Part shown: piece by piece, positions 5,062 to 31,622 of the stretch
Layout of the letters: each line of letters starts with the position of its first letter
Numbering within the stretch: position 1 is the stretch's first letter
DNA from: Candidatus Gastranaerophilales bacterium
GTDB lineage: Bacteria > Cyanobacteriota > Vampirovibrionia > Gastranaerophilales > Gastranaerophilaceae
Direction: 5' to 3'
Assembly (NCBI GenBank): GCA_944323685.1
Contig: CALUTJ010000020.1
Coordinates: 1-50,342 of the forward strand
Length of the DNA stretch: 50,342 bases
Notes under the pieces: generated by a model
The model's database searches: none
Seen by the model: only the letters and a program-made list of their open reading frames with translations
What the model was told of the DNA's origin: nothing
Translations under genes and position numbers: made by a program

Positions 5062-5095
5062 TTTAGGGTCAGGTTCTTATTTAAGGGACTTAACT

Positions 5096-5114
5096 GTCAA
5101 AAAAATTTTTTGAC
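5096..5114. repeat. perfect 19-bp palindrome between rpsQ and rplN
   Basis: The sequence reads GTC, seven A, six T, GAC: two 9-base arms around one central base. It lies in the only sizeable gap between rpsQ and rplN. In RNA it would form a weak A-U hairpin. No U-tract follows, so it is not a classic terminator. It could be an mRNA processing or stability element, or a protein site; its function is unknown. Confidence 0.5.
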
Positions 5115-5150
5115 GGGATTTCTTAAACAATAGAAATAAAGGAAAAGACA

Positions 5151-6015: not shown

Positions 6016-6098
6016 TTACTAAAGTATGGGTGCCTTGTTATACATAAATAATATGTTTGTGGCATAATGAAGGTACATTCTGCGAAAAGGAAAGAAAA

Positions 6099-12867: not shown

Positions 12868-13592
12868 GAATAAAGCCCCCCGTTGACAGAAATTACCTGA
12901 CCCGTAATGTATGATGCATCATCACACATAAGGTAGTTAACAAGGCTTGCAACTTCCTTACAAGTGCCCATACGGCGCATCGGGATGAGCTTTTTGACTT
13001 CATCAACGGGTAAATCTTTTGTCATATCAGATTCTATAACACCGGGAGCAACACAGTTAACAGTTATTCCTCTTTTGGCAAGTTCAAGGCTCAATGCTTT
13101 GGTTGCACCGATAATACCGGCTTTAGAGGCACTGTAGTTTACCTGTCCGCGATTGCCTCTTAAACCCGAAATTGATGATAAAGTAACGATTCTTCCTTTA
13201 ACTCTTTCTTCAATCATTGGCATAATAACCGGTTTTAGCACGTTATAAAAACTGCCGAGGTTTGTGTCTATAACGTCATCCCACTCTGTTTCTGTCATAA
13301 TCGGAAAGACGTTATCTCTTGCAATGCCGGCGTTGAGTACGACCCCAAAATAAACGCCGTTTTGTTTAATATCATTTTCAAGAGCTTCAAAACTTTTTTT
13401 GCGGTCTTTTACGTCAAATTGCAGAATCCTTGCTTTTTGTCCGACAGCTTCAATTTGTTTTTGAACCTCCTGTGCTTTTTCAATGTTATTTCTACAGTGC
13501 AAAACAATGTCATAGCCGTTGTTTGCAAGATAAAGCGCTATTTCTTTGCCTATGCCTCTGGACGAGCCGGTTACAAGTATCTCTTTACTCAT
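12864..13592 (-). CDS. apeQ: 3-ketoacyl-ACP reductase, ApeQ-like (FabG family)
   Basis: This is a short-chain dehydrogenase/reductase of 242 residues. The cofactor motif TGSSRGIGKEIA is at the N-terminus and the catalytic Ser/Tyr/Lys are seen in LSSISGL and NYSASKAG. The end YITGQVISVNGGL is typical of FabG. It reduces the beta-keto group made by the ketosynthases, using NADPH. It sits between the ApeOP fusion (23-bp gap) and apeR (4-bp overlap). It is probably dedicated to the pathway and not housekeeping FabG. Confidence 0.88.
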   Translation of the reverse strand: MSKEILVTGSSRGIGKEIALYLANNGYDIVLHCRNNIEKAQEVQKQIEAVGQKARILQFDVKDRKKSFEALENDIKQNGVYFGVVLNAGIARDNVFPIMTETEWDDVIDTNLGSFYNVLKPVIMPMIEERVKGRIVTLSSISGLRGNRGQVNYSASKAGIIGATKALSLELAKRGITVNCVAPGVIESDMTKDLPVDEVKKLIPMRRMGTCKEVASLVNYLMCDDASYITGQVISVNGGLYS

Positions 13593-15229: not shown

Positions 15230-15235
15230 ATTTGA

Positions 15236-15241
15236 TATAAT
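15236..15241 (+). promoter_or_regulatory. -10 box of apeC inside an 18-bp divergent gap
   Basis: A perfect TATAAT ends exactly six bases before the apeC ATG at 15248, which would place the transcript start on the A of the start codon. The -35 region is weak. The opposite strand offers TATTAT seven bases before the apeOP start. The two promoters therefore overlap face to face, and both mRNAs would be leaderless. Confidence 0.6.
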
Positions 15242-15247
15242 ACTACC

Positions 15248-15886
15248 ATGAATGAAAAAAGTGTATTTTATATATCTAACATAAATTTTATTGACGGGCA
15301 AAACGCAGAAAATCTTATTGATTTATCCTTTATGCCGCCTATGACAAGGAGAAAACTCAGCCTTGTGGATAAAGCTGCGCTCAGTGTTATGCACAAAGCA
15401 TACAACGGCAATGAAACAGAAATTGTTTTTGCCTCTCAATACGGAGAACTGGACAGGTTGGATAAAATAATAGCCCAGTATCAGGAGGACAACGAAGTTT
15501 CGCCATTCACTTTCAGCACATCTGTTCACAACTGCGTGGCAGGACAGTTTTCTTTGCTCAACAAAATAAAAAAGAGTTATAACGCGCTTGCTGCCGGAGA
15601 AAACACCTTTAGTGCGGGGCTTTTGGAAAGTCTTATGTGTACACAAAAAGGCCGTGAAGTCTTGTACTGTTTTGCGGATGCTTACAAGGAACTAAAAGCC
15701 TGCGGCTGTGTAATTTCTGCAACTCCGATAAAAGACTCAGTAAAAATCGAATTAAGTACAAACACATGCAGCGCTGCAATTGATGCCGGAAACGAATTTG
15801 AAAACTTTAAAAATTTTTGCGAAAGCAAAACAGACAGCTTTTCAAGCAGCGATAATGTTTTTTCTATTGTCAGGAGTCAATCATAA
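15248..15886 (+). CDS. apeC: beta-ketoacyl synthase-like chain-length-factor partner, ApeC-like
   Basis: The 212-residue protein matches the short ketosynthase N-terminal-like family found in aryl polyene and flexirubin clusters (Ketoacyl-synt_2). I see PPMTRRKLSLVDKAAL, the ASQYGELDRL strand and SVHNCVAGQFSL, where a catalytic Cys motif would be in a true ketosynthase but is not the standard one. In known systems ApeC pairs with ApeO as a ketosynthase/chain-length-factor dimer. Its stop is followed immediately by the apeD ATG. Confidence 0.82.
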   Translation: MNEKSVFYISNINFIDGQNAENLIDLSFMPPMTRRKLSLVDKAALSVMHKAYNGNETEIVFASQYGELDRLDKIIAQYQEDNEVSPFTFSTSVHNCVAGQFSLLNKIKKSYNALAAGENTFSAGLLESLMCTQKGREVLYCFADAYKELKACGCVISATPIKDSVKIELSTNTCSAAIDAGNEFENFKNFCESKTDSFSSSDNVFSIVRSQS

Positions 15887-16630
15887 ATGAAAAGGTTTTT
15901 CCGTGCGTTTGTGGTTGTTTTTTCGTTCGCTTTTTTCGGTGCAGGTTCGCTTGTGCTCGGGCTTGTTGTAATACCATTGATGAGTTTGTTTATAAAAAAA
16001 GAAAACAGACGCAAAGTTTTTTGTCGTGTTGTGCATAACCTCTGGGCTTTTTTCAGCGATTTTATGCAAAAAACAGGTTCTATAAAATTTAACGTAACAG
16101 ACGAACAGAAAAATTTTTTAACACAACTCAAAGGCAGCGTAATTGTTGCAAACCACCCCAGCTACATAGATATCGTGCTTTTAATCGGATTAATACCCGA
16201 CACCTTATGTGTTGTAAAAAATGAAATAAAGAAAAACCCGATTATGAGCAACATCGTAAAATCCACCTACCTTATAAATGATGAAAATAACGACACACTT
16301 AAAGAAGAAGCAAAACACGCACTTTCAGAAGGATATAATGTAATAATTTTCCCGACAGGCACACGCAGTGTTGAAGGAGAAGACCTAAAACTCCACAGCG
16401 GAGCAGCCTCAGTTGCAATATACGCAAATGCGCCTATTGTGCCCGTGCACATAACCTGTGATTATAAATTCCTTGCAAAACACCAAAAAATATACGATGC
16501 AGGCGAAAAGCCGGTTAACTATTACCTGAAAATCAACGAAACAATAAACATTGATGACTTTAAAACTCCGGACATCAATGATATCAAGCTTCGCCGCCGT
16601 ATAAATTCCGTAATAAAAGATAGAATTTAA
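15887..16630 (+). CDS. apeD: PlsC-like 1-acylglycerol-3-phosphate acyltransferase, ApeD-like
   Basis: The 247-residue protein has an N-terminal membrane segment (about residues 7-30) and the two PlsC motifs: NHPSYID (the HX4D pair) and FPTGTRSVEG. The family moves acyl chains to the free hydroxyl of lysophosphatidic acid at the inner membrane. In aryl polyene clusters a PlsC-like ApeD sits at this place, after apeC, and is thought to attach the pigment to a lipid. It starts one base after the apeC stop. cas9 begins 42 bp downstream on the same strand. Confidence 0.85.
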   Translation: MKRFFRAFVVVFSFAFFGAGSLVLGLVVIPLMSLFIKKENRRKVFCRVVHNLWAFFSDFMQKTGSIKFNVTDEQKNFLTQLKGSVIVANHPSYIDIVLLIGLIPDTLCVVKNEIKKNPIMSNIVKSTYLINDENNDTLKEEAKHALSEGYNVIIFPTGTRSVEGEDLKLHSGAASVAIYANAPIVPVHITCDYKFLAKHQKIYDAGEKPVNYYLKINETINIDDFKTPDINDIKLRRRINSVIKDRI

Positions 16631-16640
16631 AAACTCAATG

Positions 16641-16649
16641 TGTTATACT
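16641..16649 (+). promoter_or_regulatory. extended -10 promoter of cas9
   Basis: TGTTATACT fits the extended -10 consensus TGnTATAAT with one mismatch. No good -35 is seen. A start near 16656 would give cas9 a leader of about 17 bases with the AGGGGG ribosome site. It lies in the short gap after apeD, so cas9 can be expressed apart from the polyene genes. Confidence 0.5.
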
Positions 16650-16672
16650 TACCTCATCACACAGGGGGTTGT

Positions 16673-19600
16673 ATGGAAAATAAAAAAGTATTTGCATTCG
16701 ATTTAGGTAAAACAAGTATCGGCTATTGTGCGCGCTGCGGGCATGATATACAAGAGGCGGAATCAGTAATCATTGATATTGATCACGCTGATGCCGCTTC
16801 ATTAAGGGACAGAAGACGAATCTTCAGAACCCTTAATGCTCATAAAGCACGTGAAAAATATTTTGATAAAATATGGCAGGATTGCAATCTTGAGATTTTA
16901 AGCAAAGATGACAAAAAATTCACAAAAGAATTTGCCGCAAAAGGGGATTCTACGATTTATAATTCCTGTCTTTTAAGAATCGCACTTCTTCAAAACAGAA
17001 AACTTGAAATCTGGCAGATATATAAAGCACTGCATAACGCAATGCAGCGCAGAGGGTATGACCCGAATTTAGCATGGAAATCAGCCCAGACAGATGATGA
17101 CAAAGAAAATCTCGAACTTGCTAAAAAATACACACAGGAAAGCGGCGAAGAATTAATTCAAAACGAAAACTACAAATACCCCTGCTACTATGAAGCATTA
17201 AGACTCGGCATGTGGTCAGAGGACTCACCGGACGAATTTAAACCGTTCAATCCACAGCAAAATTTTAACAAAGTACGTGCAACAAACTATGTAGCACCGA
17301 GAAACCTTGTTGAAAAAGAATTAACTGCTCTTTGGACAAACGCTCAAAAACAATTGCCGGAATTGAATAAATATACTCCTGAAGAATTTTTGTACGGCGA
17401 ATACAGAGAAGCCTACGGCTCTTATGTAAACCCTGATTATCGCAAATATCTCGGCAGTGAGCATGATTGGCAGGGTGTGTTAGGGCAGAAAATTCCGAGA
17501 TTCGACAACAGAATTATCAGCAAATGCAAACTTCTGCCGAAAAGAAATGTTTGCAAAGCAAATACTCTCGAAAACGTTACTCTGGTGCTCTTGTTAAAAT
17601 TAAAAAATTTGAGAATAACAAACGGCAGCGGTGATAAAGTCAGACTCAGTCCGTCTGATATAAATACAATTTATCAAAACTGGCTTGTTAAAACAGAAGG
17701 CAGAGCCAATAAACTCGATACAACAATTACTAAAAAAGAAATTGAAGACGTAATCGGACAAAAAATTATAGACAAAATTGAACCTATGAAAGCTGATATC
17801 AGCGGGCGTTCATCTTTTTGCCGCAGAGCCTGTCAAATTATGACAGATATAATCCTCTCGGGCGAATTGTATCCTCAAAATATGGAGGTTTCAAAATACA
17901 TAGACCCACCAAACACAAAAGACGGAATAACGGAAGAAGAAATCCGCACAATGCTGTCTAAAATAGGGGATTGGAATAATCTGTATATACCTGACAACAG
18001 AAATGAAAATGCGGCTGTCGGAGAAAACACAAGAGAGAAAACAGATCTAATGATAGGGGGTATAACCAATCCTGTTGTAAGAAATCGTCTGCAAATTTTC
18101 AGAGATTTGCTGTTCTATCTTGCAGAAAAATACGGAAAACCCGATGAAGTTATCTTTGAATTTGTAAGAGAAGGTGCGGATAACTCACTGTTTGGCAGAA
18201 TCAAAGCCCAGAGTGCCGAATCTTATATGAAAAATCAGGAAAAAGAAAACAACCAGATAAAACAGGAACTCGTTGACGCAAACGCTTTGAGTCCGACAAA
18301 TTTTGAAAAAGCAAAACTATTAAAGATTCAGGGCGGAAAATGTATCTATAGCGGGCAGCCTATTGCAATTTCCGACTTTGATAAATGCGAGATTGACCAC
18401 ATTTATCCGCGGACAATGGGCGGCAATGATGCCTTATATAACAAGGTGCTATGTTTCAGGGCAGAGAACCAGAAAAAACAGGGACGTACTCCTTATGAAT
18501 GGCTTTCCAAAGACAAGGAAATCTGGGCAAATTACGTTAACAGACTTAATGACATAAAAAAACAACTCGGTAAGAAAAAATACGAACTGTTAACAAGCAA
18601 ACCGCAAGATTGTGAAAAACTTATTGAAAGTTATAACGGACTGGCAGAAACAAGTCATATTGCCAAAATTGCACAGCAAATTACAGCGTTTACTTTCGGC
18701 TGGGGCTTGCAGGTGGAAGGCGAAAGCAGACATATCTATGTAAATAACGGTGCTTCAACTTTTGCAATCCGAAAAAGATACGGGCTTAATGCAATACTCG
18801 GCGATGCGGAAAAGAAAAACCGCCAGAACGACAAACACCACGCTCTCGATGCTATTTGTATAAGTTACGCAAGAGAATTTAAGTATGACAAAACTCTGAA
18901 CAAAGACGTTATAGAAGGCTTTAATCCTGATGTTGTAAAAAAGGTTATAGACGGCATAATACCTTATCCTTATGCAAATAAAAAAGCCTTAAAAAGCAAC
19001 ACAAGACCTCTTGAAACAATATACGGAAAACGAATAATCAACGGCAAAGCCTGTATAACAAACAGGGTTACGCTGGAAACGCTTGAACCCAAAGACAAAA
19101 AGGTAAGAAATATAGTTGATGAGGCTATAAAAACAGACCTCTTAAACAAGCTCGAACAAAAACCTTCAACGGATGAGTGGTATAACTACCTTAAAGACTA
19201 TATCCACCCAAAAAAGAAAACAAAAGTAAAAAAAGTTATGATTGTCGTTTCAGAAGGTACACTTGAGCAAGACTCAAACGGACGTGACAGAATCGGAGAA
19301 CACTGCGACTACGGAACAAAAGGCACTAAGGGACAGTTTAAATGCTCAAAAGGACATAAAGGGCAAATACTCTACTACAACGACAAAGGTGCTGTAAAAG
19401 TTATGCCTGTGTATTCCAACAAAAAGACACAGGAAGTGAGAGACAAGCTTGTTGAAATGGGCTGCAAACTGTACGCTGGCGGTCAAATGTTCTACTCCGG
19501 CTGTCTTGTTAATATTCCGAATGACTTTAAAGCCGGCACTGTTACACATCCTGCTGGTGTGTATAAGTTGAGAACAATTAAAACAAATGGGGTTTTAAAA

Positions 19601-19681
19601 TTAGAAAGTAATAACGGAATTGAAATTGATTCAAGTGTAAAAAACCTTACTGATGCAAATTTCAAAAAACATAGTTCTTAA
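16673..19681 (+). CDS. cas9: CRISPR endonuclease Cas9, compact type II-C
   Basis: The 1002-residue RNA-guided nuclease has all its catalytic residues. RuvC: D10 in FAFDLGKTSIGY, E496 in VIFEFVRE, H723 and D726 in KHHALDAI. HNH: H576 in EIDHIYPR and N599 in ENQKKQG; the H-to-N distance of 23 equals that of S. pyogenes Cas9. The arginine-rich bridge helix is at about residues 45-66. The start follows AGGGGG by four bases; a GTG at 16640 lies upstream of this site and is rejected. The size and the cas9-cas1-cas2 order without csn2 or cas4 indicate type II-C. An unusual RCGHD sequence follows RuvC-I. It should be active. Confidence 0.95.
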   Translation: MENKKVFAFDLGKTSIGYCARCGHDIQEAESVIIDIDHADAASLRDRRRIFRTLNAHKAREKYFDKIWQDCNLEILSKDDKKFTKEFAAKGDSTIYNSCLLRIALLQNRKLEIWQIYKALHNAMQRRGYDPNLAWKSAQTDDDKENLELAKKYTQESGEELIQNENYKYPCYYEALRLGMWSEDSPDEFKPFNPQQNFNKVRATNYVAPRNLVEKELTALWTNAQKQLPELNKYTPEEFLYGEYREAYGSYVNPDYRKYLGSEHDWQGVLGQKIPRFDNRIISKCKLLPKRNVCKANTLENVTLVLLLKLKNLRITNGSGDKVRLSPSDINTIYQNWLVKTEGRANKLDTTITKKEIEDVIGQKIIDKIEPMKADISGRSSFCRRACQIMTDIILSGELYPQNMEVSKYIDPPNTKDGITEEEIRTMLSKIGDWNNLYIPDNRNENAAVGENTREKTDLMIGGITNPVVRNRLQIFRDLLFYLAEKYGKPDEVIFEFVREGADNSLFGRIKAQSAESYMKNQEKENNQIKQELVDANALSPTNFEKAKLLKIQGGKCIYSGQPIAISDFDKCEIDHIYPRTMGGNDALYNKVLCFRAENQKKQGRTPYEWLSKDKEIWANYVNRLNDIKKQLGKKKYELLTSKPQDCEKLIESYNGLAETSHIAKIAQQITAFTFGWGLQVEGESRHIYVNNGASTFAIRKRYGLNAILGDAEKKNRQNDKHHALDAICISYAREFKYDKTLNKDVIEGFNPDVVKKVIDGIIPYPYANKKALKSNTRPLETIYGKRIINGKACITNRVTLETLEPKDKKVRNIVDEAIKTDLLNKLEQKPSTDEWYNYLKDYIHPKKKTKVKKVMIVVSEGTLEQDSNGRDRIGEHCDYGTKGTKGQFKCSKGHKGQILYYNDKGAVKVMPVYSNKKTQEVRDKLVEMGCKLYAGGQMFYSGCLVNIPNDFKAGTVTHPAGVYKLRTIKTNGVLKLESNNGIEIDSSVKNLTDANFKKHSS

Positions 19682-19718
19682 ACATTGATTTTTAAAAAAT
19701 GATTATTAAAAACAGAAT

Positions 19719-20666
19719 ATGAGTTATCATATTCTGCATATCACTACACCCGATTGTTACCTCTCAGTTGAGAGGGGGCTGTTGTTTTGCAAAAATAAAG
19801 AAGGCGAAATAAAATCAATTGCCTTAGCGGACATACGTGCCATTATTGTTGCAGCACAGGGCATAGCTTTTTCCAACAACTGTTTGGCACGGCTTTTAGA
19901 AAATAACGTGGTTATACTGCACTGCAACACTTCATACCGTCCCGTAGGTTGGAGCGTACCTTTAGAAAGGATTGTGCGTCCTAAAGTTTTTTATTGCCAG
20001 ATAGAGCAAAACATAGATTTTGAAACTAAGTTGTGGAAAAAGATACTGCTGGCTAAAGTAACAAATCAGGCAAAAAATCTTGACCTTATGGGCTACAGCG
20101 AACACAACCTGTATAACCTGATAAACCGTCCGCTTATGAATGAAGCAAACATAGCAAAACAGTACTGGCAGAATTATTTTGTCGAAATCGGCAACCCTAT
20201 GAAAAGAGAACATCTGGCAGCGGAAACCTTTGAAAACGGCTGTCTTAATTACGGCTATGCTGTAATAAATTCTCTGATTTACCGCTCTGTTATAGTTCAC
20301 GGTCTAATTGCAAGCCTCGGTATTCACCACAAAGGCAAATACAAAAGTACGCCGCTTGTTTATGACTTAATGGAGCCGTACAGGGCTTTTATCGATCATT
20401 ATTTTTATCAATTTGTTCAAGAGTGCGAATTTGATTACGAACAGGAAAATTACAAAGCCTGGTTTAAATACCTGTCAGAATGTATAAAAAATTACAGAAT
20501 AAAAATAGATAACATAAGCTACAAGCTCATTGACACAATAAATATTTACGTGGAAAAAATAGTTGATGCTTATACAAAATTTGATTGTTCAAAGATATTT
20601 TTGCCTGACATAAACGAACAATATCTGCACATAGACAAACACAGGAACAGGGAATATGAGGAGTAA
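19719..20666 (+). CDS. cas1: CRISPR integrase Cas1
   Basis: The 315-residue type II Cas1 joins new spacers into the array together with Cas2. Likely metal ligands are E142 (MNEANIAKQ), H203 or H204 (GIHHKG) and E219 (YDLMEPYRAF), close to the spacing in other type II Cas1 proteins. The N-terminal beta domain (residues 1-80) includes ITTPDCYLSVERG. The gene starts 37 bp after cas9 without a clear ribosome site, and its end overlaps cas2. Confidence 0.95.
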   Translation: MSYHILHITTPDCYLSVERGLLFCKNKEGEIKSIALADIRAIIVAAQGIAFSNNCLARLLENNVVILHCNTSYRPVGWSVPLERIVRPKVFYCQIEQNIDFETKLWKKILLAKVTNQAKNLDLMGYSEHNLYNLINRPLMNEANIAKQYWQNYFVEIGNPMKREHLAAETFENGCLNYGYAVINSLIYRSVIVHGLIASLGIHHKGKYKSTPLVYDLMEPYRAFIDHYFYQFVQECEFDYEQENYKAWFKYLSECIKNYRIKIDNISYKLIDTINIYVEKIVDAYTKFDCSKIFLPDINEQYLHIDKHRNREYEE

Positions 20667-21003
20667 ATATCGTATGGGCTGGCTTGTTGTGTGTTTTGAT
20701 TTGCCTGTTGTGGAAAAAGAAAACCAGAGGCAGGCAAATGCGTTCAGAAAATCTTTGTTGAATCAAGGGTATTTTATGCTGCAAAACTCAATATATGTAA
20801 GGTCTTGCGTAACTTATGACAAAACAGAACAGCACATAAGAAATTTAAAACTCATAGCACCCTCAACAGGTTCAATAGTGGCTTTTTATATAACGGACAA
20901 ACAGTGGGGGCTTGCTGTTTGTATAGACAAGTATGATTATAAACAATCAAAATACAAGAAAAAAGCAGGCGAAAATGCAGAAAAACAGATGACATTCTGG
21001 TAA
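20656..21003 (+). CDS. cas2: CRISPR adaptation protein Cas2
   Basis: The 115-residue protein has the ferredoxin-like fold signature WLVVCFDLPVVEKENQRQA, with the conserved Asp, and the STGSIVAFYITDKQW strand. It is the structural partner of Cas1. The first ATG overlaps cas1 by 11 bp. A second in-frame ATG at 20674 (MGWLVV) stands 9-10 bases behind a GAGGAG and may be the real start. It is the last gene before the array. Confidence 0.92.
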   Translation: MRSKYRMGWLVVCFDLPVVEKENQRQANAFRKSLLNQGYFMLQNSIYVRSCVTYDKTEQHIRNLKLIAPSTGSIVAFYITDKQWGLAVCIDKYDYKQSKYKKKAGENAEKQMTFW

Positions 21004-21039
21004 TTTTAAGGTAGAATATCATTGTAGTGTATTTTGTTG

Positions 21040-21133
21040 AGGTTTAGAGAATGAGTCTATTCGTACAATTAAGCAGAGGAGCAAACTATTCTCTTGTCAA
21101 TTATGATTGGTCTCTTAACTTAAAATATATTAC
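21040..21133 (-). ncRNA. candidate tracrRNA between cas2 and the array
   Basis: The - strand of 21100-21128 is an imperfect complement of the 5' half of the - strand repeat. A lower stem of about nine pairs (one U-U, one G-U) is followed by a small bulge and then a run of about 18 pairs with one G-U. Stem-bulge-stem is the typical anti-repeat shape. A TATAAT on the - strand (21140-21145) would start the RNA near 21133, just before the anti-repeat. Downstream a 7-bp stem AGAGAAT/ATTCTCT (21088-21094 with 21046-21052) can form. No U-rich terminator is obvious, so the 3' end is a guess. The element at 22815 is the rival. Confidence 0.5.
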
Positions 21134-21172
21134 ATTTGTATTATATATCATTTATTCAATTTTGTATATCCT

Positions 21173-22530
21173 ATTATAACATATTTTAAATTAAGAGAAA
21201 ATCAAAACTAATTTTTGGTCTATTTCTTCTAAAAATTTATTATAACATATTTTAAATTAAGAGAAAATCAAAACTATTACCAATTTTGTACAATATAAAG
21301 TCACATTATAACATATTTTAAATTAAGAGAAAATCAAAACTGAATTCCTTCCATGGTTTAAGAATGGGAAATTATAACATATTTTAAATTAAGAGAAAAT
21401 CAAAACAATCTGTTATTGTGATATATCCACTCATTAATTATAACATATTTTAAATTAAGAGAAAATCAAAACATTAGCCATTTTTCTTGAGCGTTTCAAG
21501 ATATTATAACATATTTTAAATTAAGAGAAAATCAAAACCAATACCAGACGGTACACATATTCAACAGGATTATAACATATTTTAAATTAAGAGAAAATCA
21601 AAACGCTTGCAGCGTCTTGCATTGCCTGAGCTAATTATAACATATTTTAAATTAAGAGAAAATCAAAACAAAATCACGCTACAAAACAATAAAAATTTTG
21701 ATTATAACATATTTTAAATTAAGAGAAAATCAAAACAGGATAGATGAAATCAAAAAACTTTATGATATTATAACATATTTTAAATTAAGAGAAAATCAAA
21801 ACGCTTTAGCTAGGGGTAGTTCACTAAACATTCATTATAACATATTTTAAATTAAGAGAAAATCAAAACACTCTTTTAAAGAGTTGCAGGAATACTATCA
21901 TTATAACATATTTTAAATTAAGAGAAAATCAAAACCCCACAAATCACCGACAGTATATTGTTGGAATTATAACATATTTTAAATTAAGAGAAAATCAAAA
22001 CGGGAGCTTAACATTGATGATGTTATAGTTAATTATAACATATTTTAAATTAAGAGAAAATCAAAACATACAAGCCGAAGTTCCGGCAGGTTCCGGAATT
22101 ATAACATATTTTAAATTAAGAGAAAATCAAAACGTAAAGTCGCCTGCAACCATCAAGGCTTCATTATAACATATTTTAAATTAAGAGAAAATCAAAACCT
22201 GGTAATTTATCCATTTTATAAAATCTCCTATTATAACATATTTTAAATTAAGAGAAAATCAAAACTGCATCTTCTTTGCAACACACAGAAGGTAAATTAT
22301 AACATATTTTAAATTAAGAGAAAATCAAAACTCTGCGTAGTGCCATGAGTCTAATGTTGTTATTATAACATATTTTAAATTAAGAGAAAATCAAAACCAT
22401 TCTGCTGCATGGCAGGGGTGATGAAACATTATAACATATTTTAAATTAAGAGAAAATCAAAACACATCTGCCCATTTATCTTTGTAAAACAAGATTATAA
22501 CATATTCTAAATTAATATAAGCCCAAAAAC
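21173..22530 (-). CRISPR. type II-C CRISPR array, 20 spacers
   Basis: Twenty identical 36-bp repeats begin ATTATAACATATTTTAAATT and end AAGAGAAAATCAAAAC on the + strand. A 21st, degenerate copy lies at 22494. The 20 spacers are 29-31 bp (most 30) and none repeats another. I assign the crRNA to the - strand for three reasons: there the repeat opens GTTTTG and closes TGTTATAAT, an extended -10 promoter like that in Neisseria repeats; the anti-repeat candidates complement the - strand 5' half; and the degenerate copy keeps only the promoter end, as expected of the first repeat. I see no spacer matching this window. Confidence 0.98.
22494..22530 (-). repeat. degenerate promoter-end CRISPR repeat
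   Basis: The first 13 bases (ATTATAACATATT on +) equal the repeat and the rest diverges. On the - strand the preserved part is AATATGTTATAAT, the proposed promoter, while the guide-pairing half (GTTTTGATTTTC) is lost. It would start transcription into the array without making a crRNA. Confidence 0.75.
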
Positions 22531-23316: not shown

Positions 23317-23586
23317 ATGGATAATCAAAATTTGAGTCTGGAAGACGAATTAAAAACTTTTATAGTAGAATCATTGGAGCTGGAGGATATCAAGCCTTCT
23401 GACATCGATACTGATGCCCCTTTATTTATTGACGGTTTGGGGTTAGATTCTATTGATGCTCTGGAACTCGGTATGGCTTTAAAGAAAGAATATAAACTTT
23501 CTTTGGGCAGCGACAAAGAAGAAAACAAAAAACATTTCTATTCTGTAAAAACATTGGCTGATTTTATCAGAAACACTCAGGCATAA
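23317..23586 (+). CDS. apeE: acyl carrier protein, ApeE-like
   Basis: This ACP of 89 residues has its phosphopantetheine serine at S45 in LGLDSIDALEL. It carries the growing aryl polyene chain. It is the first gene of the right half of the cluster and is followed after 12 bp by a second ACP, the usual apeE-apeF pair. Most ACPs are acidic four-helix bundles; the Asp/Glu-rich sequence fits. The carrier is probably activated by the transferase at 28823. Confidence 0.9.
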   Translation: MDNQNLSLEDELKTFIVESLELEDIKPSDIDTDAPLFIDGLGLDSIDALELGMALKKEYKLSLGSDKEENKKHFYSVKTLADFIRNTQA

Positions 23587-23598
23587 GGTATTGTAAAT

Positions 23599-23853
23599 AT
23601 GGCAGAATATTCAAGAGATGAAATTTTTAACGTATTAAAAGACATTCTTGTCAATGATTTTGAAATTGAACAGGAAAAAATTTCAGCTGATGCAAATTTG
23701 TTTGAAGATTTAGAGTTCGACAGTATTGATGCCGTTGACCTCGCTGTTAGACTACAGGAATATACAAACAAAAAAATTTCGCCTGACAATTTTAAAGAAA
23801 TCAGAACCGTTGACGATGTTGTTGATGCGGTAGAAAAGCTTCTTGCTCAATGA
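23599..23853 (+). CDS. apeF: acyl carrier protein, ApeF-like
   Basis: The second ACP has 84 residues and carries the modified serine at S42 in EFDSIDAVDLA. Aryl polyene pathways use two ACPs, thought to separate the starter or elongation roles. Its stop overlaps the apeG start by 4 bp (ATGA). It differs clearly from ApeE in sequence, so this is not a recent duplication. Confidence 0.9.
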   Translation: MAEYSRDEIFNVLKDILVNDFEIEQEKISADANLFEDLEFDSIDAVDLAVRLQEYTNKKISPDNFKEIRTVDDVVDAVEKLLAQ

Positions 23854-24281
23854 AAAAGCTTCGTAATATTTTTCAAAAGTTCGGATTTGTTTTTTCAACG
23901 CTGTTTACTTTTTTTGTTATTGCACTTTTTTATTTTACAGGGTTGAGAGAGTTGAAATTGTACCCTGTGATAATGAACTTTTGTATTTTTCTGATATTTT
24001 TTTCCTCGCTTTTTGACAAAGAAACCGTTATACAAAAATTTGCGCGTATTTCAGAGGGAGGGGGAGAGCTGCACCCAAAAACAAAAGCTTATACAAAAAA
24101 TCTGACCTACATCTGGTGTATATATTTACTCATACAATTTTTTGCGTCTGTTGCAACACTCTTTTTGTCCGATAAAATTTGGATGATTTTTAACGGCTGC
24201 GTATCTTATATTTTACTGGGGCTGTTTTTTGCGATAGAATATATTGTCAGAATCCGTTTTAAAAAGAAACATAATTTGTAA
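23850..24281 (+). CDS. apeG: inner-membrane protein, ApeG-like
   Basis: The 143-residue protein has four predicted membrane segments (about residues 14-31, 39-51, 87-107 and 112-134). Between the second and third is a conserved-looking loop, KFARISEGGGELHPKTKAY then TKNLTYIWCIY. This is the pattern of the small membrane protein (COG4648 type) found after the ACPs in aryl polyene clusters. Its biochemical role is unknown. It is coupled to apeF and followed after 5 bp by apeH. Confidence 0.75.
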   Translation: MKKLRNIFQKFGFVFSTLFTFFVIALFYFTGLRELKLYPVIMNFCIFLIFFSSLFDKETVIQKFARISEGGGELHPKTKAYTKNLTYIWCIYLLIQFFASVATLFLSDKIWMIFNGCVSYILLGLFFAIEYIVRIRFKKKHNL

Positions 24282-24286: not shown

Positions 24287-25918
24287 ATGAATCTGTTTGA
24301 TATATTTCATACAAAACAATTTGATGACAAAACTCTGTTCATACACAAAGAAAAAAAATTTTTATTAAAAGAATTTAAAAACTTTGTTGCTTCGGGTGTT
24401 GCGTTTTTAAACACTCAAAAAGCAGATAACGTAGTTATTTTAAGCAGGTGTGCGTTTGATTTTTGCGTGTGGTTTTTCTCGTGTATTTTTGCTAAAAAAA
24501 ACATATTTCTTCTCACAGACAATTCCAAGCTGAAGTATCTTGACTTTGAATACATTGTTGTTGACAAATCACTTCCACCTGCTGAACAGCCGGATTTTTT
24601 TAGGATAGAGCCTGAAAATGTTTTAATAAACTTTTATACATCAGGTTCAACTTCGCAGCCAAAAAATGTGCAAAAAACTCTTGCTAATGTGATAACAGAA
24701 GCTAATTGTCTTTATGAAGAGTTTTTTGCTTTATCAAAATGTGATAATACACAGTTCAGATTTTTAACTTCAACACATCCGCAGCATATGTTTGCTTTTT
24801 CTTTTTATTTTATGCTTCCACTATGCTTTTGGGGTTCTTTTGTGCTTGATACAACAGAAGTCTGCTATCCTGATGACGCGGATTTTAAAGACAGCGTTTT
24901 TATTTCTACACCATCGTTTCTTGAAAAATTTCAAAAATATGAAGTAAAAAACAGTTACTCGCCTTTTCTTATTTTTAGTGCAGGTGCAAAATTAAATAAC
25001 GGACTTTTTAAATATCTTAATCAGTCCGGTAATGTTGTTGATATTTACGGAAGTACTGAAACAGGTACAATAGCTTACAGAAGCTGTAGTGATGATAAAG
25101 ACTTGACTGTTTTGAACAGAGTAAAAATATCAACGGATAATAACTCTCAGCTTGTTGTATCTTCTCCGTTTTTTATTCAGGATTCTGTTACGCTCGGCGA
25201 TATTGTACAGATAAAAGATGACAAACATTTTGTACTGCGTGGCAGGGCTGACAGAGTTTTTAAAATTCAGGAAAAAAGAGTATCAGCTCCGGAGGTGGAA
25301 ACAGAACTTATAAACTCTGTGCCTCATTTGATTCAATCCTGCTGCTGTTTTAAGTCAGGTGAAAAACTTGCGTGTGCAGTTGTGCTGACAGTAAAAGGAA
25401 TCGATTTGTTTTTTGATAAAGGTAATTCAATATTAAAACTTACCTCATTTTTTAAAAACACTTTAAAAGACAGAGTGGAAATTGTTCCGCAAAAATGGAA
25501 ATTTTTGCACGAGCTTCCAAAAACCAAGACGGGTAAAATTGATACAGAAAAACTTGAAAGAATTTTTAAAACCAATATTTCAATGCCGTTTGTTTTCGAA
25601 GTACAAAAAGATTCTCACAGTGCTGTGTATGACTTAACATTCCCTTTTAGCTGCAATTTCTTTACGGGGCATTTTAACGGATTCCCTGTATTGCCGGGGG
25701 TTGTACAGCTGTATTTTGCGCATTTCTTTGCATCAGACGCTTTTGGAAACGGTGTTTCAAATGATTGTGTAAAAAAAATTAAGTTTTCAAAAATTATTAA
25801 GCCTGATGAAAAACTTAAGCTTGTATTTGAAAGAAAAAATAATTTGATAAATTATATGTATAAACGAGATGAACAAATTTGTTCAAGCGGAGTGATGACA
25901 ATAAATGAAAAAGATTGA
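24287..25918 (+). CDS. apeHI: acyl-AMP ligase-dehydratase fusion, ApeH-ApeI
   Basis: The 543-residue protein joins two pathway enzymes. Residues 1 to about 430 are an ANL adenylating enzyme, with the ATP loop YTSGSTSQPKN (around 120), YGSTETGTIAY and the C-terminal GRADRVFKIQEKRVS and KTKTGKID. In the pathway it activates the aryl acid (4-hydroxybenzoate in known cases) and loads the ACP. Residues about 437-543 are a hot-dog dehydratase with the FabA/ApeI pattern FTGHFNGFPVLPGVVQL and its catalytic His. The next gene overlaps its end by 14 bp. Confidence 0.87.
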   Translation: MNLFDIFHTKQFDDKTLFIHKEKKFLLKEFKNFVASGVAFLNTQKADNVVILSRCAFDFCVWFFSCIFAKKNIFLLTDNSKLKYLDFEYIVVDKSLPPAEQPDFFRIEPENVLINFYTSGSTSQPKNVQKTLANVITEANCLYEEFFALSKCDNTQFRFLTSTHPQHMFAFSFYFMLPLCFWGSFVLDTTEVCYPDDADFKDSVFISTPSFLEKFQKYEVKNSYSPFLIFSAGAKLNNGLFKYLNQSGNVVDIYGSTETGTIAYRSCSDDKDLTVLNRVKISTDNNSQLVVSSPFFIQDSVTLGDIVQIKDDKHFVLRGRADRVFKIQEKRVSAPEVETELINSVPHLIQSCCCFKSGEKLACAVVLTVKGIDLFFDKGNSILKLTSFFKNTLKDRVEIVPQKWKFLHELPKTKTGKIDTEKLERIFKTNISMPFVFEVQKDSHSAVYDLTFPFSCNFFTGHFNGFPVLPGVVQLYFAHFFASDAFGNGVSNDCVKKIKFSKIIKPDEKLKLVFERKNNLINYMYKRDEQICSSGVMTINEKD

Positions 25919-26321
25919 AACAACTTATAAAACACAGGTAGAATTTTATGACCTTGACCCGATGAATGTTGTCTGGCACGGAAACTATGTAAAATATCTA
26001 GAGGCTGCACGTTGTGATTTTCTTGCTAAAGTCGGCTGCACCTATGATGATATAAAAAATGCAGGTTATGCTTATCCTGTCGCAAAAATGGAGATGAAAT
26101 TTATAACTCCATGCGAATTTATGCAAAAACTCCTTATTAAAACCGAGCTGGAATCTATTGAACCGTCTTTGAATTTTAAATACACAATTCTTGACGAAAA
26201 AACCGGGGCAAAACTTTTCAGCGCAAAGACAATGCAAATCTGCATTGAAATAGCAACAAGAAAAACAGTATACACCGTACCTGATATTTTGAAAGAGAGA
26301 ATAGATAGCTATGAAAATTAA
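25905..26321 (+). CDS. apeK: 4HBT-type thioesterase, ApeK-like
   Basis: The 138-residue hot-dog thioesterase is of the YbgC/4-hydroxybenzoyl-CoA type: QVEFYDLDPMNVVWHGNYVK holds the catalytic Asp and the conserved WHGNY, followed by YLEAARCDFL. In aryl polyene clusters ApeK probably edits or releases ACP-bound chains. It overlaps apeHI by 14 bp and apeL by 11 bp. A glycosyl/acyltransferase apeJ usually stands before apeK; here no gene lies between. Confidence 0.85.
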   Translation: MKKIETTYKTQVEFYDLDPMNVVWHGNYVKYLEAARCDFLAKVGCTYDDIKNAGYAYPVAKMEMKFITPCEFMQKLLIKTELESIEPSLNFKYTILDEKTGAKLFSAKTMQICIEIATRKTVYTVPDILKERIDSYEN

Positions 26322-26859
26322 AAATATTTTATGCATTGTATTTTTGCTTCTTGTAACGGGTTTAGTCACACTGAGAGCAGACGCAGACAGTATTTTTAAC
26401 CACAAGATAACTGCTAAAGAAGCAGCAAAAAACTTGCCGGAATTTAGCGATACTTCATGCAAATTTTCTCAGGACAAAATAATTAAAAGCAGTGCATCAG
26501 AATGCGTCACCTTAAAATCCAAAGGCAACTTCAAATTTGAAAAAGATAAAGGAGTTACGTTTGAAACCACATATCCCGTAAAATCGGTAACCTCTTATAC
26601 TTCTTCGCAAAACAAACACGTAAGCTCCATTGTAAAAGCACTTGCTAACAAAAACTACACATATCTTGAAAAAAACTTTGATATTTATTTTTTACAAACT
26701 CAAGACAAACTCTGGGAACTTGCCCTGAAACCGAAAAAAGATTCTAAAGCCGCAGCCGCACTAAAGGTCATAAATATTCACGGCAAAAGTAAAATAGATA
26801 AAATGATAATAGACACCCAAAACAGCAAAACAACAATAAACTACACGGATTGCAAATAA
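26311..26859 (+). CDS. apeL: LolA-like periplasmic protein, ApeL-like
   Basis: The 182-residue protein has an N-terminal signal (about residues 1-25) and a LolA/LolB-like fold, seen in CKFSQDKIIKSS, SKGNFKFEKDKGVTFET and the TTYPVKSVTS strand. LolA-type proteins carry lipids across the periplasm. Paired with the MMPL exporter it is expected to receive the polyene lipid. Sequence similarity to true LolA is low, so the call leans on gene order. Confidence 0.75.
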   Translation: MKIKNILCIVFLLLVTGLVTLRADADSIFNHKITAKEAAKNLPEFSDTSCKFSQDKIIKSSASECVTLKSKGNFKFEKDKGVTFETTYPVKSVTSYTSSQNKHVSSIVKALANKNYTYLEKNFDIYFLQTQDKLWELALKPKKDSKAAAALKVINIHGKSKIDKMIIDTQNSKTTINYTDCK

Positions 26860-29045
26860 TGAAAAGCCGCATACTTGATATATTAAGAGTATTATTTGTT
26901 GCAGTAATTTTAGTACTGTCAGTTGTTGTTTTTTTCAACCCTAAAAAGACAGAAACAAACATACTTAAAGCAGTGCTTACGGACAATCAAAACGACAGGA
27001 TTCTTGTTGATTTGAGCAAACGTAATTCCAATAAAATCAATATTATTTTTGAAAGCGATAATTTTGACAACCTTGACAACGCTTACAAAGATTTTTTTGA
27101 CAGGCTGGATAAAAACTCTTTTTATCTTAACGAAACAGAGATTACTGGCGTGCTTGACACCTACAAGAAATATCCTGACAACTTTCTTTCAGATAACACC
27201 CGCAAACTTCTTAAAGAAAAAAACTATGATGCAATCGTACAACAGTCTTACGAAAGATTGTATAACCCTATCGGGCTTACACTTTTACCTCTGGAAAAAG
27301 ACGCATTTCTTCTGCTTACGGATTATATAATCGGCCTCTCTGCACCAAATAGTGCACAGGATGGCGAAATTGACGGTAAAGATTATAAAACAGCAAGCTT
27401 TTATATAAAAAAAGAACTGGCGCTTTCTCCGACTCTGCTTAATGAGCGGATGACGGAGCTTGTTGCGTTAAAAGACTCCGTATCGGACGAAGACGTGAAA
27501 ATCTATATAGCCGGTGCTCCCGTGCATACGTATTATGCAAGTTCCAAATCAATGAAAGAAATTAATCTTATATGTATGCTGTCATCTTTGTTTATTATAT
27601 TGCTTTGCAAATTTTATTTTAATTCGTTTAAGATTCTTTTGCCAATCGGAGCAAGTCTGGCTCTTGCAATGTATTTAGGGTATCTTGTCACCTGTATGTT
27701 CTTTGATTCAATACACATATTAACCTTTGTTTTTGCATCCACACTGATTGGCATTTGCGTAGATTACTGTTTGCATTATTTTGCACATAACAAAGATTTA
27801 ATCCGAATTTTACCCAGCCTCACACAAAGCCTTCTAACAACGGTTTGTGCTTTTGCAATTTTGCTGTTTTCAAACATGGAACTTTTAAAACAGATTTCAA
27901 TATACACAATCACCGGACTTGTGTGCGTTTATCTTGTAGTTGTGCTTTTTTACCCGTTGTTATGCAAAGATATTGAACTCACAAAAATGAAAACACTAAA
28001 ATTTCCGGCTATAGCGGACAAAATAAAATACACAATTATCACTGTTATGGCGATTGTTGCAATAAGCGGGTTGTTCAACATAAAATTTAACGATGACATT
28101 AAAGATATGTATATCCCGCCAAAATCTCTTGCTTCCGCTGAGAAGCTGTATGCACAATTGTCAGGCAGCGGATTCAACCCTGATTTTATAATAGTTAATG
28201 CAAAAGATACACAGAGCCTGCTTGAAAAAGAAGAAACAATAACTCAAAAACTATTTGAAAACAATATAGAATACTATGCCCTGAGCCGTTTTGTTCCGTC
28301 AATAAAAACGCAGAAAGAAAATAAATCACTGGTAAAAAAACTTTATAAAAATTCTTTAAAATCTTATGCAGGTCCTTTTTTGAGTGAAAAAACGATTAAA
28401 GATATTTTAAATACAAAACAAGAACAAAATTTCCTCACACCCGACAATACAAATCTTTCAATGTTAAAAGACTTTTTATACAATGATACAACCTCTGTAA
28501 TTGTTGTTAACGCTGAAAGTGAAAAAGAAAAAGTTATAAAACAAATTGCGAACAAATCAGCTGCAACTTTGATTAACTTAAAAGAAGATATTTCTCAAAA
28601 AGTCGGCAGCTGCCGCAAAGCCTGTCTTATCCTTTTTGCACCGGCTGTTATTGTATTATTTTTGATTTTAGCATTTATATATAAACCTAAAAACGCCTTA
28701 AAAATAATATTTCCTTCATTTTTCGGCGCAATGTTTTCAATAGGGTTAATAGGTCTGTCGGGCAAGGGGTTGAATCTGTTTCATGTGCTTGCTTTGTTTT
28801 TGATAATAGGTTTTACAATGGATTATTCAATTTTCCGTTTTAACGGCTCAAGCAGTTCAAACTCAAAAGCTGCTGTATTGATATCTTGCGCAACAAGCGT
28901 ATTTTCGTTCTTTTTGCTTTCAATGACAAGCTTTAAATTAATAAGTTCGCTTGGTTTTATTCTCTGGGTTGGGCTTTTAAGCTCATATATTTTAAGCGTT
29001 TTACTTATATCACAGTCTTCTTGCGAACAAACACAAAGACAGTAG
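26859..29045 (+). CDS. apeM: MMPL-family exporter, ApeM-like
   Basis: The 728-residue RND/MMPL protein has one membrane helix at about 9-28, a periplasmic domain, a five-helix block (about 235-370), a second periplasmic domain and a second block (about 590-720), as in two-repeat Patched-like transporters. Conserved-looking FASTLIGICVDYCLHY and FLIIGFTMDYSIFRFN carry the Asp residues of the proton path. The ATG at 26859 overlaps the apeL stop (TAATG); a TTG three codons upstream is less likely. Its 3' end runs 223 bp antisense into the transferase gene at 28823. Confidence 0.86.
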   Translation: MKSRILDILRVLFVAVILVLSVVVFFNPKKTETNILKAVLTDNQNDRILVDLSKRNSNKINIIFESDNFDNLDNAYKDFFDRLDKNSFYLNETEITGVLDTYKKYPDNFLSDNTRKLLKEKNYDAIVQQSYERLYNPIGLTLLPLEKDAFLLLTDYIIGLSAPNSAQDGEIDGKDYKTASFYIKKELALSPTLLNERMTELVALKDSVSDEDVKIYIAGAPVHTYYASSKSMKEINLICMLSSLFIILLCKFYFNSFKILLPIGASLALAMYLGYLVTCMFFDSIHILTFVFASTLIGICVDYCLHYFAHNKDLIRILPSLTQSLLTTVCAFAILLFSNMELLKQISIYTITGLVCVYLVVVLFYPLLCKDIELTKMKTLKFPAIADKIKYTIITVMAIVAISGLFNIKFNDDIKDMYIPPKSLASAEKLYAQLSGSGFNPDFIIVNAKDTQSLLEKEETITQKLFENNIEYYALSRFVPSIKTQKENKSLVKKLYKNSLKSYAGPFLSEKTIKDILNTKQEQNFLTPDNTNLSMLKDFLYNDTTSVIVVNAESEKEKVIKQIANKSAATLINLKEDISQKVGSCRKACLILFAPAVIVLFLILAFIYKPKNALKIIFPSFFGAMFSIGLIGLSGKGLNLFHVLALFLIIGFTMDYSIFRFNGSSSSNSKAAVLISCATSVFSFFLLSMTSFKLISSLGFILWVGLLSSYILSVLLISQSSCEQTQRQ

Positions 29046-29503
29046 TCTTTTTGAAACAACGCATTCATCTTTGATTTTACATCAGATTGCAATTTTATTC
29101 CTGCTTCATAACCCGTCCAGAACTTATAAAACCCTATTCTGTCAGGATTTTCAACTTCAAGATTGTAGTGTTCAAAAAGTTTTTTAAAATCTCTTTGTTT
29201 CATTAATTCCAAATCTATTGAAACATTTGATTTGTCAAAAACAGCCATAACATAACTGTGTGAATGAGTCAGACTAAAACAAATATCATTATTTTCAATA
29301 TACGGTTTTTTGTTTTTGAGTAAAATTTTAGGGTTATCAATGCCAAAACGATTTTTTAATACATATTGTATCAAAAAGCGGCCGAGACAAAACTCTGTTT
29401 TACGTTTATCAGAGGCAAAATTGTTCCACTCTAAAAAAGCATAAAGCGATGATTTATCAATGTTTTTTAAAAATTCGTCAATTTTTATGAAATAAATTTC
29501 CAT
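28823..29503 (-). CDS. 4'-phosphopantetheinyl transferase, Sfp type
   Basis: The 226-residue protein is the likely activator of the two cluster ACPs. Motifs: RFLIQYVLKNRFG, FSLTHSHSYVM, then VSIDLE with metal ligands D97 and E99, and FWTGYEAGIKL with E133. Where most family members have Lys (WTxKEA) this one has Tyr. The last ~73 residues are encoded opposite the apeM 3' end; the part up to about KIYEL looks like a normal family C-terminus and the rest may be run-on. A promoter (TTGCTT-17-TAAGAT) ends six bases before the ATG. Confidence 0.85.
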   Translation of the reverse strand: MEIYFIKIDEFLKNIDKSSLYAFLEWNNFASDKRKTEFCLGRFLIQYVLKNRFGIDNPKILLKNKKPYIENNDICFSLTHSHSYVMAVFDKSNVSIDLELMKQRDFKKLFEHYNLEVENPDRIGFYKFWTGYEAGIKLQSDVKSKMNALFQKDYCLCVCSQEDCDISKTLKIYELKSPTQRIKPSELINLKLVIESKKNENTLVAQDINTAAFEFELLEPLKRKIE

Positions 29504-29511: not shown

Positions 29512-29538
29512 CTTAAGCAATTATGGAGCAAAAAGCAA
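29510..29538 (-). promoter_or_regulatory. promoter of the phosphopantetheinyl transferase gene
   Basis: -35 TTGCTT (complement of 29533-29538), 17-bp spacer, -10 TAAGAT (complement of 29510-29515), then six bases to the ATG at 29503. It fits the leaderless pattern seen at apeE and apeC. It overlaps the start of the divergent gene. Confidence 0.45.
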
Positions 29539-30647
29539 TGCAATCAGAGCGTGAAACCTACAGAAGACAGCGAAAAAATAAAAAATCAAAAGTAGAGGTG
29601 CTTACAGAGGCTCAAAAAATAGCATTTGCGCCGATGACATTTCAGGCACTTGCTGCGTTGATAGATTTTAATATACTGCAAACAATAAGCCAAACTCCGC
29701 TGACAAGAGAAGAAGTTATGCAAAAATGCAACCTGTCAAAATACACTGTGTATACACTTTTTGATGCAGCACTGTACGCAGGATTGATAAAAAAAGATGA
29801 ACAGGGTGCATACAGTGCAACAGACCTCGGTGAGGCTTTCTTGCTTGACCCGATGACAAAGGCAAATTTTAATTTTATAAAAGATGTATGCTACTTAGGT
29901 GCACACGAGCTTAAAGAATCGTTTGCAAAAAACACTCCGGTCGGGCTTCAAAAACACTATATTGATTCAAAAACAATTTATGAAATTTTGCCACAATTGC
30001 CGCAGCAGATGTTAAAAAGCTGGTACGAGTTCGACCATTACTATTCTGATGACTGTTTTGGCGAGGTTTTAAAAATCATGTTCAATCCGAAACCCGCAAA
30101 GGTTTTTGACATAGGCGGAAATACAGGCAAGTTTGAGCGGGCATGTCTTGCTTTTGACGGTGATTGTATTGTTAACATGATTGATTTGCCGCCCAATATT
30201 GAAGTTGCAAAGGCAAAATTTGAACAAGAAAAAGCTGATTTTAACAGACTCAAATTCCATGCGCTTGACATATTAAAACAAGAAAATAATCTTCCGGATA
30301 TGACCGGTTCTGACGCCAAGAACACGATTGTTTTAATGAGTCAGTTTTTAGATTGCTTTTCAGAAGAGCAGATTCTTCATATTTTAAACAAGGTGGGCGA
30401 AAAAATTAACGAGTATACAAGAGTGTATATTCTCGAGCCGTTTATTGATAATCAATTATTCACCGGTGCCGCATATTCACTCGCTCATATATCGCTTTAC
30501 TTTACCTGTATGGCCAACGGATGCAGCAAAATGTACAACGAAGCGGATATGAAAGATATAATTAAAAAATCCAACCTGAAAGTAAACAGAGCTTTTTATA
30601 ATATCGGAAAATATGATTACACACTGCTTGAGTGCATAAAAGCTTAG
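29523..30647 (+). CDS. SAM-dependent O-methyltransferase with winged-helix domain
   Basis: The 374-residue protein has an N-terminal dimerisation/winged-helix part (about residues 35-110; PLTREEVMQKCNLSKYTVYTL) and a class I Rossmann part with the SAM motif VFDIGGNTGKFE near 194-205, then MIDLPPNIEVAK. This is the layout of plant-type small-molecule O-methyltransferases. In aryl polyene clusters a methyltransferase modifies the aryl head group; that is the expected job here. A Lys/Arg-rich N-terminus of ~25 residues is unusual. The acyltransferase gene follows after 18 bp. Confidence 0.8.
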   Translation: MEQKAMQSERETYRRQRKNKKSKVEVLTEAQKIAFAPMTFQALAALIDFNILQTISQTPLTREEVMQKCNLSKYTVYTLFDAALYAGLIKKDEQGAYSATDLGEAFLLDPMTKANFNFIKDVCYLGAHELKESFAKNTPVGLQKHYIDSKTIYEILPQLPQQMLKSWYEFDHYYSDDCFGEVLKIMFNPKPAKVFDIGGNTGKFERACLAFDGDCIVNMIDLPPNIEVAKAKFEQEKADFNRLKFHALDILKQENNLPDMTGSDAKNTIVLMSQFLDCFSEEQILHILNKVGEKINEYTRVYILEPFIDNQLFTGAAYSLAHISLYFTCMANGCSKMYNEADMKDIIKKSNLKVNRAFYNIGKYDYTLLECIKA

Positions 30648-30665: not shown

Positions 30666-31622
30666 ATGTCTGAAAAACAAAAGTGGTATCAAATGAAAGA
30701 GCGTGCCGCAGGAGAAAAACGACTGTTGTTTATGTGGTATGTCTATAAATTTATCGGTAAAAAGGCAGTTTGTTTTTTGACGTTTTTTGTCTGTTTATGC
30801 ACTTTTCTTGCAGCTAAACAGGTAAGAAATTACGCAAAAAACAATCTAAAAACAATTTTTGATTACTGTTTACAAAACGGTTATAAAACTGTTAAACCTT
30901 CACTGATTAACTGCTTTAAAAATGTTTTTAACTACGCTCTGTCCCTTGTTGATAATATGCAAATATTTGCCGGTGATTTTAACGTAGAAAACATATTTTT
31001 TGACAGCGAAAACGACAAAAAAATGTTTTATGATGACATAAGAGCCCGCAAAGGTATTTTCTTTATTTGTTCCCACACAGGCAATATAAATGTCTTGAGA
31101 ATGTTTTTTAAAAACCAAGACCCTTACGAACGTTCAGACGTTAACGTATTTTTAAGTCAACAACAGTGCAAGGTGTTTAACACTTTTTTGAAAAAAGTTT
31201 ATGAAACCGGCAAAAAGAAAATGCACAATACCGTCTCGCTGTATCCTGTTGAAGAAATAGACATTGAAACTTCAATAGAATTGAAAGAAAAACTCGACAA
31301 AGGTGAAATTGCTTTTATGGCCGGCGACAGGCTGTCATCAGGCACATCTAATTTGACTTTTAAACACAAATTTTTCGGCAAGGAAATTGAATTTCCCGCA
31401 GGCACTTTCAAAATGGCACAGCTGATGGAAACACCTGTGTATTTTATTTGTGCGCTTAAAGAAAAAAATGACTCTTACAAGGTTTATCTAAAAAAATTCT
31501 CTGCGGTTTCAACCAAAAAAGAAACGCTGCAAAAAATGGAACACGAATACGTGGAATTTATAGAGCAAATAACAGTGCACGACCCGCTTCAGTTTTACCA
31601 TTTTTATTCGCTCTTTTCTTAA
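30666..31622 (+). CDS. LpxL-like lipid acyltransferase (ApeJ acyltransferase-domain type)
   Basis: The 318-residue protein belongs to the lysophospholipid/lipid A acyltransferase type (COG4261 style). It has a membrane segment at about 36-54, the HX-type motif ICSHTGNINVLR (around 137) and MAGDRLSSGTSN with the family GDR. In known aryl polyene clusters ApeJ is a glycosyltransferase joined to such an acyltransferase; here only the acyltransferase part is present, and no glycosyltransferase domain is found in the cluster. It is the last cluster gene, with GGAG before its ATG. Confidence 0.78.
   Translation: MSEKQKWYQMKERAAGEKRLLFMWYVYKFIGKKAVCFLTFFVCLCTFLAAKQVRNYAKNNLKTIFDYCLQNGYKTVKPSLINCFKNVFNYALSLVDNMQIFAGDFNVENIFFDSENDKKMFYDDIRARKGIFFICSHTGNINVLRMFFKNQDPYERSDVNVFLSQQQCKVFNTFLKKVYETGKKKMHNTVSLYPVEEIDIETSIELKEKLDKGEIAFMAGDRLSSGTSNLTFKHKFFGKEIEFPAGTFKMAQLMETPVYFICALKEKNDSYKVYLKKFSAVSTKKETLQKMEHEYVEFIEQITVHDPLQFYHFYSLFS

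Follow-up and report, generated by a model that had tools for sequence, protein, structure and literature searches.

Can the two halves of a split dehydratase, each tied to a different enzyme, join those enzymes in a single assembly? The question is raised by an open reading frame (ORF) in a 50,342-nt stretch of DNA from a Candidatus Gastranaerophilales bacterium, analysed here at its full length and referred to as the window. The ORF appeared to encode a fusion of the acyl-AMP ligase ApeH with the dehydratase half ApeI. The best overall explanation, which we consider probable, is a type II polyketide synthase of the aryl-polyene type whose two-part dehydratase is carried on the ligase and on a ketosynthase, giving one assembly if the halves pair.

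Domain structure of the ApeH-ApeI protein

The ORF at 24287–25918 on the plus strand encodes 543 amino acids with no interruption and consists of an ApeH-type acyl-AMP (acyl-ACP synthetase-type) ligase (residues 1–430, 24287–25576) followed by an ApeI hot-dog dehydratase half (residues 431–543, 25577–25918) with the catalytic His462 (codon 25670–25672). The ligase is recognized through a Pfam AMP-binding match at residues 103–279 (E = 3e-16), fold matches to ANL enzymes, and the ANL motifs A3, A5, A7, A8, and A10 (Lys417), all of which lie before residue 430 and are kept in 62 aligned proteins. The P-loop (A3), YGxTE (A5), hinge (A8), and A10 lysine are complete, with the conserved positions T118/G120, G255/E258, D305, R320/D322/K326, and K417 retained in about 60 of the 62 relatives. 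In the AlphaFold model, which is good only for residues 330–540 and parts of 1–80 and predicts the middle of the ligase poorly, the matches to ANL enzymes stop at around residues 429–432 and those to ApeI start at 432. The first-pass annotation had put the end of the ligase near residue 430, which agrees with both the motif positions and these limits.

The same annotation had described the C-terminal domain as FabA/ApeI-type, and this was confirmed by a hot-dog fold, by the GHFxxxPxxPGV signature of the FabA/FabZ type found in GHFNGFPVLPGV (residues 461–472), and by similarity to chain A of PDB 6qsr. This chain is the best sequence match of residues 431–543 (E = 3e-8) and, in a second-look alignment, the best fold match of the model (residues 432–541; Z 13.8, rmsd 3.5 over 109 residues, 26% identity). 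The Pfam family ApeI-like (PF22818) matched residues 455–526 with 26.4 bits against a cut-off of 28.5 in the protein scan (E = 9e-6), and exceeded this cut-off with 29.7 bits in the genome search.

The surrounding gene cluster

The genome to which the window belongs is 2.3 Mb in size with a completeness of 99.7%. The cluster around the ORF possesses a pair of ketosynthase (KS) and chain-length factor (CLF), an ApeR-type ketosynthase, a ketoreductase, two acyl carrier proteins, the ligase, two dehydratase halves, a thioesterase, and an exporter. On the minus strand are the ApeR-type ketosynthase (11638–12867; NCBIfam NF006587, 635 bits against a cut-off of 470, named from cluster order), the ApeQ-type ketoreductase (FabG; 12864–13592; NF004200 and TIGR01831, both above cut-off), and a ketosynthase-ApeP fusion described below. 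The genes from ApeC-type to exporter are on the plus strand, starting with the ApeC-type chain-length factor, a half-size ketosynthase (15248–15886; Pfam Ketoacyl-synt_2, E = 1e-30), and the ApeD-type lysophospholipid acyltransferase (15887–16630; Pfam Acyltransferase). The two acyl carrier protein genes directly upstream of ApeH are of ApeE type (23317–23586; NF006617) and ApeF type (23599–23853; NF003757), each above its NCBIfam cut-off. The small membrane protein at 23850–24281 has no Pfam or NCBIfam match and is named ApeG by its position, which is conserved in 59 clusters. Downstream of the fusion are an ApeK-type acyl thioesterase, a separate hot-dog protein (25905–26321; Pfam 4HBT_2, E = 6e-14; TIGR00051, 67.7 bits with a cut-off of 68.7), a protein in the ApeL position (26311–26859; conserved in 59 clusters, no Pfam match, LolA-like by position only), and the ApeM-type MMPL exporter (26850–29045; Pfam MMPL). 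These are followed by a 4'-phosphopantetheinyl transferase-like protein on the minus strand (28823–29503; Pfam 4PPT_N, 26.1 bits with a cut-off of 27) and, on the plus strand, by an O-methyltransferase (29523–30647; Pfam Methyltransf_2 and dimerisation domain) and a lipid A-type acyltransferase (30666–31622; Pfam Lip_A_acyltrans), whose roles are presumed to be ApeB-like and ApeJ-like, respectively.

With this cluster, non-photosynthetic Cyanobacteriota of the gut are seen to have a complete set of aryl-polyene type, and a limited search of the open literature found no paper reporting one there. Neither an aromatic ammonia-lyase (PF00221) nor a chorismate lyase UbiC (PF04345) was found in the window genome; the source of the aromatic starter may be the gut, or an enzyme of a family other than these two.

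A CRISPR-Cas locus is situated inside the cluster, between ApeD and ApeE (16640–22530). It encodes a Cas9-like protein of 1013 aa (HNH_4 domain), Cas1, and, in the position of Cas2, an ORF of 115 aa, and its array (21171–22511) has 21 repeats at intervals of about 66 nt. ApeD and ApeE are about 50 nt apart in most relatives, with a large gap also present in a 97% relative (L090).

Distribution of the ligase-ApeI fusion

ApeH-ApeI is a single ORF in all 62 Gastranaerophilales clusters compared, and order-wide it is never split; this count comprises 60 readable clusters, including the window (one further cluster is truncated where its contig ends), and two more, all from draft genomes. The fusion is also one ORF in finished plasmid or megaplasmid records of Acinetobacter (two), Cupriavidus (two), Caballeronia, and Burkholderia, and ApeH and ApeI are two ORFs in the Klebsiella and Pseudoalteromonas records. 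In the E. coli record ApeI is separate and the ligase gene is broken. On this plasmid, pSTEC639_1 (L087), ApeH (4571–6092) is split between two frames, of 371 and 182 aa, that overlap, and the aryl-polyene cluster of the plasmid looks broken or mis-sequenced.

The ApeH-ApeI fusion is not new, as in A. baumannii ApeI has been described as fused to ApeH, with ApeP as partner and a single active site, and ApeH-ApeI and ApeP were co-expressed there for in vitro polyene synthesis (PMC8041823). By itself, the fusion is ordinary. The first-pass reading was right about the identity of ApeH and ApeI and the location of the ApeP half on a ketosynthase, and the pairing of halves that it considered is supported by the residue patterns described below.

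Some ApeH-ApeI proteins (L097, L101–L105, L117, L126, and L135), those of a single genus-level group, g6, together with a few others, are just 415–437 aa long. These lack about the first 105 ligase residues and are intact from the P-loop onward.

Fusion of ApeP to the ketosynthase ApeO

The second dehydratase half is carried on a ketosynthase, as had been proposed from the sequence at first reading. The ApeO-ApeP ORF spans 13616–15301 on the minus strand, with the likely start codon ATG at 15229 (coding region 13616–15229), and has Pfam ketoacyl-synt and ApeP-like matches. Residues 1–378 form the ApeO part, which matches 6qsp_A in a PDB sequence search and has Cys143, His269, and His303, this Cys/His/His set being kept in 60 of 60 sequences. 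The ApeP part (residues about 393–537) matches 6qsr_B and has Glu447 (codon 13889–13891) within an E-x-M-A-Q motif that is invariant in 61 of 61.

Of 57 Gastranaerophilales clusters, 15 have KS-ApeP as a single ORF, and the other clusters have two adjoining or overlapping ORFs; beyond these, three further fused cases were found, all from the genus of the window. Across four separate clades, a maximum-likelihood tree built from the KS part shows eight changes between the fused and split states, at least six of them on branches with good support. Relatives in four clades, with identities ranging from 97% to much lower values, carry the fusion in frame, and the linkers of the fused forms vary between clades in both length and sequence. 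In the four proteobacterial plasmid records (L087, L088, L089, and L171), the sole sample from outside the Cyanobacteriota, KS and ApeP are separate ORFs. Since only about one in four clusters has the tether, the pathway can do without it and covalent assembly is optional, which argues against the tether being essential.

The KS and ApeP genes always adjoin, and in the majority of clusters they overlap, with a median distance of −8 nt, so that fusion by stop loss would be mechanically easy. The pairs ApeQ-ApeR, ApeP-ApeQ, ApeE-ApeF, ApeI-ApeK, and ApeC-ApeD overlap equally closely and none was found fused in about 57 clusters, the only other neighbor fusion among the clusters being one ApeM-acyltransferase case; some of these neighbors, however, are located in the membrane or exported, and a fusion could not be useful for them. 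Compared with one overlapping neighbor pair (0/57), the frequency of KS-ApeP fusion gives a Fisher p of 2e-5, but the clusters are related and the counts are not independent. As far as a limited literature search goes, the combination of KS-ApeP and ApeH-ApeI fusions in one cluster appears undescribed.

Complementary half sites

In FabZ, the active site combines a His of one protomer with a Glu of the other that lies 14 residues further along the sequence; FabA has Asp in place of Glu. All 64 ApeI sequences have the catalytic His in GHF. At position 14 after this His, Tyr (37) or Phe (22) is found in 59 of the sequences from Gastranaerophilales, and the others have Asp (three, all proteobacterial), Asn (one), or Gly (one). 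Further proteobacterial ApeI records keep Asp at this FabA position, with Gly in Acinetobacter. ApeP shows the converse: the Glu is present in 61 of 61 sequences, and the residue 14 positions before it is never His and in 57 of the 61 is Phe or Tyr. As a control, the FabZ of the window genome has both His and Glu, in GHFPGNPIMPGVLQTEALAQ. Judged from these residues, neither ApeI nor ApeP alone is able to form a standard FabZ site.

Because these patterns are complementary in about 60 clusters, it is well supported that the two proteins must pair to give one active site, and pairing in the window organism itself is strongly inferred. The residues also fit a pair in which the ApeI His and the ApeP Glu form one live site and the second site is dead, its leftover acid having presumably decayed in Gastranaerophilales and in Acinetobacter.

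Co-occurrence was considered as well. ApeP is also absent from five of five near-complete relatives lacking ApeH-ApeI (G001, G009, G028, G030, and G035), and it was confirmed to be present in four relatives that have it on another contig. In one genome (G177, contig C7, L152), ApeP, KS, and ApeR were found and ApeH-ApeI was not detected in the whole genome; this is probably due to a contig break and possibly to real loss.

Proposed assembly and alternative explanations

In the proposed pathway, the ApeH part would, to judge from known ApeH, adenylate an aromatic starter acid and load it on an acyl carrier protein rather than on CoA, in keeping with the two acyl carrier protein genes directly upstream. 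The KS-CLF (ApeO and ApeC) would then extend the chain, the ketoreductase would reduce it, and the ApeI:ApeP pair would dehydrate it, with one active site per pair. The starter is presumed to be aromatic and the product to be of aryl-polyene type. As ApeI and ApeP are each covalently attached to a different enzyme, their pairing would join the ligase, the KS-CLF, and the dehydratase. If pairing holds, a single assembly of ApeH-ApeI, ApeP-ApeO, and ApeC is the predicted consequence, holding starter loading, elongation, and dehydration together. From computed masses of 62.4 kDa (ApeH-ApeI) and 58.4 kDa (ApeP-ApeO), and an estimate of about 24 kDa for ApeC, a 1:1:1 unit would be about 145 kDa. 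A benefit through channelling can be conjectured. More tentatively, and with somewhat more doubt than belief on our part, some Gastranaerophilales may possess a type II polyketide system that is now covalently clamped, in which the dehydratase halves act as a docking pair joining the starter ligase, KS/CLF, and dehydratase in one channelling particle; such an organisation, midway between type II and type I, would have arisen repeatedly.

It is also conceivable, if rather doubtful, that the halves pair as a dehydratase and that the fusions arose neutrally, as by-products of gene overlap, with no working ligase-ketosynthase assembly beyond co-production. The overlap of KS and ApeP in most clusters, the alternation of fused and split states, and the differences in linkers between clades are in keeping with such by-products, and in A. 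baumannii ApeH-ApeI/ApeP functions in vitro where the ketosynthase is a separate protein (PMC8041823). Against this, ApeQ-ApeR, ApeP-ApeQ, and ApeC-ApeD overlap to the same degree and were not found fused in about 57 clusters, and ApeH-ApeI is never split in Gastranaerophilales. The same pathway occurs with and without the ketosynthase tether, with repeated switching in related clusters, and these natural fused and split forms allow a test of what tethering contributes to polyketide enzymes that are otherwise free-standing.

We regard it as very unlikely that the ApeI domain works alone, as a homodimeric dehydratase or as a thioesterase, even though most proteobacterial ApeI have Asp at the FabA position, where a FabA-like homodimer site is thinkable, and some thioesterases share the hot-dog fold. 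In Gastranaerophilales the acid is almost always replaced by Tyr or Phe, and in Acinetobacter by Gly. The possibility of a stand-alone thioesterase, raised in the first-pass annotation as a counter-case, was rejected given the FabA/FabZ type of sequence, the best match to the ApeI of heterocomplex 6qsr, and the separate thioesterase gene that adjoins at 25905–26321; the ApeH-ApeI protein had no 4HBT match in Pfam at E 0.01, the resemblance to thioesterases being one of fold only. It is hardly credible that either fusion, or both, is an artefact of metagenome assemblies, through misassembly or a frameshift. The Gastranaerophilales genomes are indeed all drafts, and for KS-ApeP most clusters have the split state, but ApeH-ApeI is intact in every one of 62 clusters and in the finished replicons of four other genera, and the reading frame of KS-ApeP is continuous in relatives of four clades. 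The recurrence of ApeH-ApeI in 62 clusters also led to rejection of a chance ORF at 24287–25918.

Comparison with known systems

The PfaC-type polyunsaturated fatty acid synthases combine ketosynthase domains with hot-dog dehydratase domains in one polypeptide, and are large type I synthases. They differ in this from the window, where half a dehydratase is attached to a type II ketosynthase.

The ApeH-ApeI of A. baumannii CRAB C1 (PMC8041823) is similar to that of the window in having ApeI C-terminal to ApeH in one chain, ApeP as partner, and one site common to both halves. The length of about 550 aa is also similar, with 552 aa in Acinetobacter (L088) and 543 aa in the window. ApeP, on the other hand, is free in A. 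baumannii and fused to the ketosynthase in the window, and the residue 14 positions after the His is Gly in Acinetobacter ApeI and Tyr in window ApeI.

The Xenorhabdus doucetiae ApeI:ApeP heterocomplex (PDB 6qsr) is the best sequence match of both window halves and the best fold match of the ApeI half, and likewise has the His on ApeI and the Glu on ApeP. In X. doucetiae, however, ApeI and ApeP are free proteins, and its ApeI keeps Asp at the FabA position. Details of the heterocomplex are based on PDB titles, PMC8041823, and PMC8253772.

The aryl-polyene cluster of E. coli CFT073 (PMC8253772) has a near-identical gene set, C-D-E-F-G-H-I ... K-L-M ... O-P-Q-R, whose order the window genes follow. 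All of its genes are separate, and it includes a glycosyltransferase and ApeN, neither of which was seen within the window. Unlike in CFT073, the O-P-Q-R arm in the window is divergent.
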